Positions 2,811 through 7,782 of a stretch of 20,063 nucleotides of DNA are shown one piece after another. Source of the DNA: a virus; the IMG/VR virus record IMGVR_UViG_3300009553_000529, positions 1 through 20,063 of that record; one strand, 5' to 3'. The notes beneath the pieces are model-generated. The model ran no database searches and was not told the DNA's origin. It saw nothing but the letters and a program-made list of their open reading frames with translations. The position numbers were made by a program, and so were the translations under genes. Numbering within the stretch: position 1 is the stretch's first letter; each line of letters begins with the position of its first letter.

Positions 2811-3345
2811 CCGGCGGATCTAACGAAGCAAGGTCGCGGCCGTCGTCTTTGTTCGTCGATTCGACCGCCGCGGCCGTCGCCGTGTGCGACCCTGAGACAT
2901 GGGTGTGCTGAATCGCGTCAACGTCGGGCCCGTCGCCGCGCGCCCGTTTGGCCTGAATCACGAATCCGACGGTCGATCGAACGACCGCTTTCTCGTCGCC
3001 CGTGAACGTCGGCCAGTGTCTCAGGAGCCGCAGCACCAAGGGTTCACTCACCACTTTCTCAGGTCCGTACAGCGACTCAATTAAGTCCGCGATGTCCCCT
3101 TTGCCGGCGGCGCGGAGCACGGCCGACGCCGGTTCGCCGGACACCTGTGCCAGACGTAGACAGTTCTCCACATTGAAGGGGAAGTCGCCCGTGTTGATCG
3201 CGCGACTGAGTCGCGACGAGTCCATCTGCAGTGCGTCCGCGAGCGCTTTTTTCGATTCGAATCTTCGCGCGACCCGAGAGAGCAGCTCCTTGAAAGCATC
3301 CACTGACCCGACGATAGCCACGGGTCCGGCCGTGCTGCAAAACAT
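2632..3345 (-). CDS. Helix-turn-helix transcriptional regulator, likely lysogeny repressor
   Basis: This is a 237-residue protein. Residues 31-72 (KKALADALQMDSSRLSRAIN and what follows) form a clear XRE-type helix-turn-helix. A middle helical region (96-135, with HWPTFTGDEKAVVRSTVGFV) and a disordered basic tail follow. No LexA/CI-type S24 peptidase motif is seen, so it would not be a self-cleaving repressor. It is divergent from the Cro-like gene and separated by an operator-promoter region, the classic genetic-switch layout, and lies upstream of integrase in the same direction. The start is uncertain (ATG 3345, or GTG codons 9 or 15) because no good ribosome site is seen. The last 60 residues may be in the wrong frame. 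Confidence 0.75.
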   Translation of the reverse strand: MFCSTAGPVAIVGSVDAFKELLSRVARRFESKKALADALQMDSSRLSRAINTGDFPFNVENCLRLAQVSGEPASAVLRAAGKGDIADLIESLYGPEKVVSEPLVLRLLRHWPTFTGDEKAVVRSTVGFVIQAKRARGDGPDVDAIQHTHVSGSHTATAAAVESTNKDDGRDLASLDPPVDQANPVPRAPRPRAQTLAAFKKATAEIEAADTRKARRHAAATRVRAAGGGPRGRKPRR

Positions 3346-3378
3346 CAGGACAGGGTAGGGAAGCAGTTCCGGTCATTC

Positions 3379-3407
3379 TTGACAGTACAGCCACGTACCT
3401 GTATCGT
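3379..3407 (+). promoter_or_regulatory. Sigma70-type early rightward promoter
   Basis: A consensus TTGACA (3379-3384) is followed after exactly 17 bases by TATCGT (3402-3407), four of six matches to TATAAT. Transcription should begin around 3413-3415, on or next to the ATG of the Cro-like gene, which has no ribosome site. A leaderless mRNA is therefore likely. Confidence 0.7.
3386..3403. promoter_or_regulatory. Operator candidate TACAG-8-CTGTA within the promoter
   Basis: Five-base perfect arms TACAG (3386-3390) and CTGTA (3399-3403) sit in the spacer between -35 and -10. A repressor bound here would block RNA polymerase, fitting control by the divergent HTH gene or by the Cro-like product. 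No second copy was found in this intergenic region. Confidence 0.5.
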
Positions 3408-3414
3408 GCAGCGC

Positions 3415-3678
3415 ATGGGAGTAAAGCCCGCGAACGTTGACAGCGAGTCCGAGGACCTCCTCGACCAGTTGAACCAAGTCCGACTGACGCGTGACTGGTC
3501 GTACCGGCAACTGTCGGACGACATCGAGAAGGTCACCGGGTACGTGGTCTCCGCGCAGACGCTGCAGCCGCTGCTGTCGGCGCCGAGAGCCGAGCGGGCC
3601 AAGCCGTTCGATCGGACGTTGCACAAGATCCGTCGGTACCTCGACGCCCTCCGCCCCCCGAAGCGGCGCGCCTCATGA
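3415..3678 (+). CDS. Cro-like small DNA-binding protein
   Basis: This 87-residue protein starts MGVKPANVDSESEDLL. Residues 21-70 (RLTRDWSYRQLSDDIEKVTG, then SAQTLQPLL) resemble an XRE-type helix-turn-helix, followed by a helix KIRRYLDALRPPKR. It is the first gene of the rightward early operon, divergent from the repressor, so a Cro-like role is likely by position. A longer start at 3379 is rejected because it begins inside the -35 box. With the mapped promoter, translation would start at the mRNA 5' end. The gene ends in an ATGA overlap with the next. Confidence 0.68.
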   Translation: MGVKPANVDSESEDLLDQLNQVRLTRDWSYRQLSDDIEKVTGYVVSAQTLQPLLSAPRAERAKPFDRTLHKIRRYLDALRPPKRRAS

Positions 3679-5864: not shown

Positions 5865-5990
5865 ATGGCGCTCATCGACGACGAACCGGACGAAGGCGAG
5901 CCCGACGACGACGGCGATCCGGACGACGACGAGCTCGAGGATCCGGACGACGACGATGAGGACGACGAGGAAGAGCAAGCCTTCGCGTAG
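5865..5990 (+). CDS. Ultra-acidic 41-residue protein
   Basis: A GAAGGGAG ribosome site lies seven bases before ATG 5865. The product begins MALIDDEPDEGEPDDDGDP and has 17 Asp and 9 Glu among 41 residues and no Lys or Arg, a net charge near -26. Extreme acidity suggests a DNA mimic or a ligand for basic proteins, a strategy phages use against restriction enzymes or nucleoid proteins; this is inference from composition only. Repetitive GAC codons could also reflect a low-complexity expansion. It is the last gene before the replication leader. Confidence 0.6.
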   Translation: MALIDDEPDEGEPDDDGDPDDDELEDPDDDDEDDEEEQAFA

Positions 5991-6254: not shown

Positions 6255-6995
6255 ATGAGTGGCGATCGCGAGCGCTATCCCTCGGTGCCGGAGCGCATCA
6301 CGTGGACGACGGGGTTCCGCGTCGCGACTGATAAGTCAGTGCTCGGGACGCTCTCAACGTTTGCGAATTTCAGAACCGGGAAGGCGGCGCGGATGTCGCT
6401 GCGCGCGCTCACGATGCGCTCAGGCCTCCCCCGGCGGACGGTCCAGCGCGCGTTGCAACGACTGGAGGCGGACGGGTGGATCGTTGGTCACCGATCGCAC
6501 CGACACGCGACGTCGTGGGACATCAATATTGAACGCCTGGCGGAGAACTGGGTGGGAGCGAAAGTGGTGAGCGATCGGTCCGACGTACTTACAGATCTGA
6601 GCGCCACCGGTGGCGCTCAAGAGGAAGAATTTCGGTTCGTTCTGAGCGCCACCGGTGGCGCTCAAGACCCCGATCTGAGCGCCACCGGTGGCGCGCAACA
6701 CTCCGATCTGAGCGCCACCGGTGGCGCACCGATCCCCTGTACGTACGTAGATCCCCTGTACGCCGATCACAAAGAACCGGCGCTGCGCGCCGCCTCTCCC
6801 AAGAATTCGGAAACGTCGACGACGACGGGTGTCGCGACGAACGAGGCGAAAGGCGACGACGGGACGCCCCAACAGCTCACGTTCGGACCACACGACGTGC
6901 GGCCGCCGCCGCACGATCCGAACTGGACGCAGCGATTCGCGGAGACGCTTCGCACCGCCCTTCGGACACCAGCGGATCGGAAAAAACATGGCTGA
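6255..6995 (+). CDS. Phage replication initiator with internal origin (lambda O-like)
   Basis: This is a 246-residue protein. Residues 48-92 (LRALTMRSGLPRRTVQRALQ, then RLEADGWIVGHRS) form a winged helix-turn-helix like those of phage and plasmid initiators. The middle carries four repeats of LSATGGA(Q) at about 115, 130, 141 and 152, encoded by four near-identical palindromes (6598-6730) that look like iterons. The C-terminus is Pro/Thr-rich and less ordered, as in lambda O, where it recruits the helicase loader. No helicase or loader gene is visible nearby, so host or distant phage proteins must supply that role. The stop overlaps the start of the HNH gene. Confidence 0.72.
   Translation: MSGDRERYPSVPERITWTTGFRVATDKSVLGTLSTFANFRTGKAARMSLRALTMRSGLPRRTVQRALQRLEADGWIVGHRSHRHATSWDINIERLAENWVGAKVVSDRSDVLTDLSATGGAQEEEFRFVLSATGGAQDPDLSATGGAQHSDLSATGGAPIPCTYVDPLYADHKEPALRAASPKNSETSTTTGVATNEAKGDDGTPQQLTFGPHDVRPPPHDPNWTQRFAETLRTALRTPADRKKHG
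6598..6730. repeat. ori: Four palindromic iterons, presumed replication origin
   Basis: Copies at 6598-6619, 6643-6664, 6676-6697 and 6709-6730 share the 16-bp perfect palindrome GCGCCACCGGTGGCGC. The first two extend to 22 bp, the third has one arm mismatch, and the fourth loses its right flank. Start-to-start spacing is 45, 33 and 33 bp. Four palindromic iterons inside the initiator gene match the lambda ori layout. Confidence 0.72.
6731..6762. repeat. 13-bp direct repeat GATCCCCTGTACG next to the iterons
   Basis: Copies at 6731-6743 and 6750-6762 start immediately after the last iteron, spaced 19 bp. They encode different residues in frame, so the repeat is conserved at DNA rather than protein level. 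They are likely part of the origin, such as a second protein-binding site. Confidence 0.45.
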
Positions 6996-7782
6996 CCTTC
7001 CCCGGAACAGCGCCGCCGAGATTCAGCGACTGCGGGATTTGCCGTATCACGATGGCTATCTGAAATCCTCGTGGTGGCGCCGGCGCCGACACGTCCGGCT
7101 GCAGAAGGCCAAGGGCAAATGCGAGAAGTGTGGAGCCGTCACCTCGTTCCAGGACGTGCATCACGTGCACTACGACCGACTGGGCGAGGAGCGCGATAGT
7201 GATCTTGAAGTGGTCTGCCGTGACTGCCACGGCAAGGCGCATTTCGACCAGAGTCGCCAGCAGAACATCGGGGTCTACGAAAAACTCGCGCGCGAAACGC
7301 TGCGCCTCGACAAGCCCACGACGGCGACTGACTTCAAAGACGCGTTTCGGCTACGACTCGACCAGATACACCTCCCGATCGACCATCGGGTCGACGACGC
7401 CGTCTCGATCGTGTGGAAGCACGAAGCCGTGAGCCTGGCTAGTGAGGAACGGCGGGCGCGCGTCGCGCACGTCCTGGCGAAGGCGGGCGAGCTGCCGCCG
7501 ATCAGTGTGCCCGAGGGGATGGCGTTGCTGCGTCGGATGGGCTACTCGCGCGTGCCGGTGCGCGGGATGCCGACGATGTTCGGGCCCGGTACCGGCGTCG
7601 CGTTCATCAGAGCTCGCGCGGCCGAACGGTTGAAGGGAACCCGCTGTCCGGCCTGCGCGCATCACGGCGTCCAGCTCTCACGCGAGCCGCCGGGTTGGGT
7701 GTGGTGCGAGCACTGTCATCACAAATGGGATCTCCTCAGTGAGGAAGTTGAGCGCCTCGGGTTCACCGGGAGTTCTGAATGA
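6988..7782 (+). CDS. HNH endonuclease-like protein with C-terminal zinc ribbon
   Basis: This 264-residue protein has an N-terminal HNH/treble-clef domain: C45-x2-C48, H58-H59 (DVHHVHYDRLG), then C77-x2-C80-H81 and H85 (CRDCHGKAHF), with the usual acidic segment between. The C-terminus has a second zinc ribbon, C220-x2-C223 and C240-x2-C243 (CPACAHHG, then WCEHCHHKWD). The middle (about 95-215) is unrecognised and helical. HNH proteins cut DNA in homing, packaging or restriction roles. Placed directly after the origin gene and overlapping it by eight bases, a recombination or replication-linked nuclease is possible. The two-zinc-module architecture is unusual. Confidence 0.75.
   Translation: MADLPRNSAAEIQRLRDLPYHDGYLKSSWWRRRRHVRLQKAKGKCEKCGAVTSFQDVHHVHYDRLGEERDSDLEVVCRDCHGKAHFDQSRQQNIGVYEKLARETLRLDKPTTATDFKDAFRLRLDQIHLPIDHRVDDAVSIVWKHEAVSLASEERRARVAHVLAKAGELPPISVPEGMALLRRMGYSRVPVRGMPTMFGPGTGVAFIRARAAERLKGTRCPACAHHGVQLSREPPGWVWCEHCHHKWDLLSEEVERLGFTGSSE

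Follow-up and report, generated by a model that had tools for sequence, protein, structure and literature searches.

The locus raises the question of whether palindromic repeats embedded in the gene of a predicted winged-helix protein constitute a replication origin, as in phage lambda, where four inverted-repeat iterons and an adjoining segment of lower stability make up an origin located centrally within the initiator gene (PMC7466680). The window (the whole 20,063-base virus record) harbored exactly four copies of GCGCCACCGGTGGCGC, at 6601-6616, 6646-6661, 6679-6694, and 6712-6727, with start-to-start intervals of 45, 33, and 33 bp. All four were located within the ORF at 6255-6995 and each encoded LSATGGA, in full agreement with the counts, spacings, and peptide given in the initial annotation. 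Judged from its sequence, this ORF is very likely a replication initiator gene whose linker doubles as the replication origin and which would work like lambda O/ori (probability about 0.86). The lambda-O-like interpretation with a new iteron word, put forward at the outset, was supported, with DNA binding and origin activity as its predicted elements. The features and the iteron words of the related phages are collected in Table 1.

Table 1. Features of the initiator locus in the window, and iteron words of the homologous genes.
Feature	Position	Strand	Description
Initiator gene, 246 aa	6255..6995	+	winged helix-turn-helix at the N-terminus, then a linker predicted to be disordered and a short helix at the C-terminus (HTH_24 over cut-off, PHROG weak, AlphaFold2)
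Winged-helix DNA-binding domain (predicted)	6282..6548	+	about residues 10-98
Iteron 1	6597..6620	.	CTGAGCGCCACCGGTGGCGCTCAA; 22-bp perfect palindrome 6598-6619
Iteron 2	6642..6665	.	identical to iteron 1; palindrome perfect over 22 bp, 6643-6664
Iteron 3	6675..6698	.	CTGAGCGCCACCGGTGGCGCGCAA; 16-bp perfect core
Iteron 4	6708..6731	.	CTGAGCGCCACCGGTGGCGCACCG; 16-bp perfect core, degenerate right flank
Second DNA repeat, copy 1	6731..6743	+	GATCCCCTGTACG; near-invariant across five phages, two reading frames
Second DNA repeat, copy 2	6750..6762	+	GATCCCCTGTACG; near-invariant across five phages, two reading frames
Candidate DNA-unwinding element adjoining iteron 4	6731..6770	.	low stability; putative function
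C-terminal helix, candidate partner-binding end	6924..6965	+	residues 224-237; putative role; a DnaA domain-I-like module takes its place in some relatives
L007 iteron word			TTGAGTGCCACccGTGGCACcCAA
L009 iteron word			TTGAGTGCCACgGTGGCACCCAA
L010 iteron word			TTGCGCGTCACngGTGACGCGCAA
L008/L018 iteron word			CCGCCACcgGTGGCGG
L011/L012/L024 iteron word			CTGCCAnnnTGGCAG
L015 iteron word			TTGACCGTCAnnnnTGACGG
L023 iteron word			CTGAGGATCAnnnTGATCC
L025 iteron word			CTGAGGCTCAaaaTGAGCC
L026 iteron word			TGATGCTCAaaaTGAGCA

None of the shuffled windows attained the observed number of GCGCCACCGGTGGCGC copies, and no fifth copy was detected in the whole record with up to one mismatch allowed. 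An exact search of 2.9 million viral contigs for two or more copies of the same 16-mer was also empty, indicating that the iteron word itself is not widespread; the iteron sequence of the window phage is new, and the kind of arrangement is known. In all four copies, LSATGG was encoded by the same codons, including GGT, a codon used for 9-11% of glycines in the window phage. When the protein was held fixed and synonymous codons were redrawn 100,000 times, 99,090 draws contained no perfect 16-bp palindrome, 909 contained one, a single draw contained two, and none contained more, compared with the four observed. Iterons 1 and 2 were perfect 22-bp palindromes (TGAGCGCCACCGGTGGCGCTCA), so the site exceeds 16 bp, and the family comparison points to a full site of 23-24 bp (YTGAG..CTCAA); copies 3 and 4 were perfect over the 16-bp core. 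At 10.5 bp per turn, 33 bp corresponds to 3.14 turns and 45 bp to 4.29 turns; approximate phasing is therefore limited to the last two intervals, and the spacing of three helical turns first ascribed to them is approximate rather than exact. A GC-skew inflection, suggested as a check on the locus, was not seen at the iterons.

The window protein matched HTH_24 over the Pfam cut-off and HTH_36 (PF13730) below it (18.8 bits, cut-off 25); HTH_36 was over the cut-off in the homologues L009, L010, L012, L024, L025, and L026. Its PHROG matches were weak and comprised replication initiation and O-like families (O-like 7.8e-4 and 2.5e-3), and nearly all of its weak profile matches were phage replication-initiation families, several of them named O-like. 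The O-like matches were stronger for L009-L011 (1e-7 to 1e-10, best 1.3e-10), and those of the window protein and its homologues lay mainly over the winged helix-turn-helix (wHTH). RepA_N was not among the Pfam matches of the window protein, and Pfam recognised no helicase-binding domain in its C-terminus. An AlphaFold2 model built from 13 homologues predicted the wHTH confidently at residues ~10-100 (pLDDT about 90 or more), followed by a linker, including the iteron-encoded part, predicted to be disordered (pLDDT <50) and by the short C-terminal helix; such a disordered linker would be free to carry DNA sites. Foldseek searches of the PDB retrieved generic winged helices, none at E<=1e-3, and the structure matches among viral models were phage helix-turn-helix proteins whose names included replication initiator and, in one case, replication protein O. 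AspA and TubR, two centromere-binding wHTH proteins, were also among the weak Foldseek matches, a result that would fit a parS-like centromere bound by a TubR/AspA-like partition adaptor. However, this is very unlikely, given that a ParA-type ATPase was found in 0 of the 13 records, that the window phage has an integrase, and that the profile matches are to initiators and not to partition proteins.

Three rounds of profile scans of viral contigs yielded 12 distinct homologous genes from other uncultured phages (L027, a weak match without repeats, was excluded); over the wHTH, the majority were 46-70% identical, and the most distant about 40%. A scan of genome contigs revealed no relative with the window protein and two weak ones with the first two-sequence alignment, and the homologue L025 had no match in a plasmid collection. 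No published description of this initiator family was found in a literature search whose coverage excluded many journals. All 12 homologues carried three to five repeats directly after the wHTH, in the same linker, mostly palindromic and of differing sequence. The family half-site was about YTGASnnnCA, with middle letters that vary between phages, and both even and odd half-site-to-half-site spacings were present across the family. Most members had its TGA in codon frame 1, and L023, L025, and L026 had it in frame 2, with copies in both frames inside a single gene in L009, L011, and L012; in L009, one DNA repeat encoded two peptides, LSATVAP and FECHGGTQ. The third frame, in which TGA would be a stop codon, was used by no true iteron across the family. 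Given that the repeats occur in two frames with differing peptides across the homologues, the DNA and not the peptide is conserved, the opposite of an LSATGGA peptide retained while the DNA varies, which the initial annotation had named as the pattern speaking against its proposal. The four window copies do share one frame and one peptide, as peptide repeats with DNA similarity left by a recent tandem duplication would, but the probability of such a protein feature is close to negligible: it is contradicted by the frame changes among copies (L009, L011, L012) and homologues, by the persistence of palindromic repeats in the 12 homologues while their peptides differ, and by the excess over the codon null.

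In a sum-of-arms palindrome test, the window and 7 of the 12 homologues reached significance; L007, L011, L012, L015, and L024, which have imperfect repeats or repeats cut down to half-sites, did not. Each palindrome could form a short hairpin on either strand, and RNA hairpins acting in attenuation, as terminators, or in translational control were considered as their function; this is highly improbable, because L011, L012, and L024 keep repeats cut to one half-site, which are unable to form a hairpin, and no T-run follows the window's palindromes. Adjacent iteron spacings were at 21-22 or 30-33 bp in 26 of 36 cases, giving phase coherence at 10.5 bp that is confounded by shared ancestry and codon steps. 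Moreover, half-site differences tracked recognition-helix differences (Mantel r=0.48, p=0.0006), a correlation to which the same two confounders apply. The distant initiators L023 (1075-1240) and L026 (2925-3090) were also found to have a common middle region, CAHP..HAWCDGR.HVPR.LHFEFLDRL, absent from the others.

Directly after iteron 4, the 13-bp sequence GATCCCCTGTACG occurred twice, and in a five-phage alignment this block was the most conserved linker DNA, with the frame of each copy varying between phages. Just 2.75% of 40-bp windows in the record were less stable than the segment at 6731-6770, a modest value for a segment that is not AT-rich. This segment with GATCCCCTGTACG represents the best candidate unwinding element, at which strand opening might begin. 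It occupies the place that the AT-rich segment has in ori-lambda (PMC7466680), and GATCCCCTGTACG equals in unit length the 13-mers found in the unwinding elements of oriC and RK2 (PMC4980987).

For the helicase step, no DnaB (PF03796), DnaC/IstB-type loader (PF01695), or D5-type primase-helicase (PF08706) was detected in the 13 uncultured records, which may be fragments, by a search confined to these three families; JBD68 served as the positive control for PF03796 and PF01695, and both were found in it. The window record is a 20-kb fragment, and the absent helicase and loader genes might be located beyond its ends. A ResIII-type helicase gene was present in L023 alone. The consensus DnaA box TTWTNCACA occurred four times in the 13 records (about 450 kb), and three of the four, all TTTTCCACA, were inside the initiator gene (L007:4330, L010:4333, and L012:4471); TTTTCCACA occurred nowhere else in the set. 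Initiator genes make up ~2.4% of the sequence, and the chance of at least three of four boxes falling inside them is thus about 5e-5, a value that ignores the several features examined. DnaA-box matches were likewise seen inside the initiator gene of L030, at 2130 and 2178, and outside the initiator genes such matches were almost absent from these phages. Furthermore, the C-terminus of the L026 initiator (3201-3497) was a DnaA N-terminal domain (DnaA_N, 31.6 bits, cut-off 24.6), the C-terminus of L018 (5490-5771) aligned to this DnaA-like end with 35% identity, and that of L008 (4470-4765), without a separate significant match, resembled a DnaA domain-I-like module by eye. DnaA domain I has a role in helicase loading (PMC4980987). 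Boxes (L007, L010, L012) and fused module (L008, L018, L026) never occurred together among the 13 uncultured members, and the window phage had neither a DnaA box in or near its array nor a DnaA-like module. Tentatively, and with considerable doubt, these phages might represent a loader-free initiator family in which helicase recruitment is a swappable DnaA function, supplied by host DnaA via in-gene boxes, by a fused DnaA domain-I-like module, or by some other short C-terminal end, and in which iteron word and recognition helix change together between phages.

The palindromes could also be operators, with the wHTH protein acting as a transcription regulator that represses early transcription from within its own gene and has no role at an origin. 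The profile and fold matches to generic MarR/ArsR-type winged helices are in line with this, and in iteron systems iteron binding often autoregulates too. Nevertheless, such a regulator is unlikely, as arrays of three to five sites in mid-gene with a conserved low-stability repeat block adjoining them point to an origin, as do the replication-family profile matches and, in relatives, the DnaA boxes and the fused DnaA domains, and no full iteron was found in the record outside the gene. According to the preferred initiator-origin reading, the winged-helix domain would bind the four palindromic iterons, probably as dimers, and the bound array would wrap or bend the DNA and could thereby open the weak downstream segment at 6731-6770 with GATCCCCTGTACG, whereupon the host helicase would be brought in. 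In the family, this last step probably proceeds via host DnaB/DnaA and not via a phage-coded loader, and its route may be the C-terminal end of the initiator, which in up to three relatives is a DnaA domain-I-like module, or DnaA boxes in the array, as in three others.

Compared with lambda O/ori, the window shares a predicted mid-gene origin, four inverted-repeat iterons, and an adjoining weak segment. In contrast, its iteron sequence is unrelated and perfectly palindromic, whereas that of lambda is a 19-bp imperfect inverted repeat; the segment beside its iterons consists of a GATCCCCTGTACG/GTAC repeat instead of AT-rich DNA; and no DnaC-type loader was found here, with relatives having DnaA boxes or a DnaA-like domain instead. 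Most of the sequence similarity is confined to the wHTH, and neither a DnaC-type loader nor a DnaB gene was detected next to the initiator; membership in the lambda O family is therefore not claimed. The same plan was identified in cultured phages with more distantly related HTH_36-type initiators: behind an N-terminal winged helix, their linkers also contain DNA repeats in mixed frames, but with other iteron words. Pseudomonas phage JBD68 gp54 harbored the palindrome GGTGCAACGGTTGCACC and single repeats, with a spacing of 22 and mixed frames, and its palindromes (17-18 bp) were near-perfect to perfect. The initial view that perfect palindromes are unusual was therefore not borne out, as JBD68 and the uncultured relatives have them too. 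The gp54 homologue in vB_Pae_U2 is annotated as a replication initiation protein, with genes for a DnaC-like loader and DnaB coming after it, and these adjacent genes distinguish the JBD68 type from the present family. Gordonia phage Chickadee gp53 had repeats in two frames and two perfect DnaA boxes (TTATCCACA), with no further copy in 56 kb, and Streptomyces TurkishDelight gp71 showed the same plan less cleanly. These cultured phages suggest that the arrangement is common among phage initiators and no curiosity of the window phage.

Among other systems, the RepA_N initiators of plasmids and satellites (pSK41, pTZ2162, and PLE RepA) bind semi-palindromic iterons with their N-terminal domain and have a variable C-terminus (PMC7145576). 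The window protein would share this plan, with a predicted N-terminal DNA-binding domain, iterons, and a C-terminus that varies in its family, but it lacks a RepA_N match. RK2 oriV combines iterons, a DNA-unwinding element of 13-mers, and DnaA boxes (PMC4980987), all of which have counterparts here, the unwinding element as a candidate and the boxes in some relatives of the window phage; the differences are that the origin here would lie inside the initiator gene and that one winged helix alone is recognised in the initiator. The present set adds 13 uncultured GC-rich phages with a lambda-style origin-in-initiator-gene arrangement and many different iteron words, providing natural data for reading winged-helix specificity and for seeing how one stretch of DNA serves as both coding sequence and origin. 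Should the DnaA-module reading be true, it would also show how loader-less phages can seize the host helicase.

In addition, a short, very acidic Asp/Glu-rich ORF was located just upstream of the initiator in both the window (5865-5990, ending EEEQAFA) and L005 (4600-4830, ending DDEAAFA). Lone exact half-sites, TGAGCGCCA, were present outside the array at window positions 5866 and 8565 (minus strand), which may be chance; the one at 5866 coincides with the start codon of the acidic ORF. Downstream, the likely ATG of an HNH endonuclease-like gene (6988-7782) overlaps the initiator stop by 8 bases, suggesting that the two genes may be translationally coupled.
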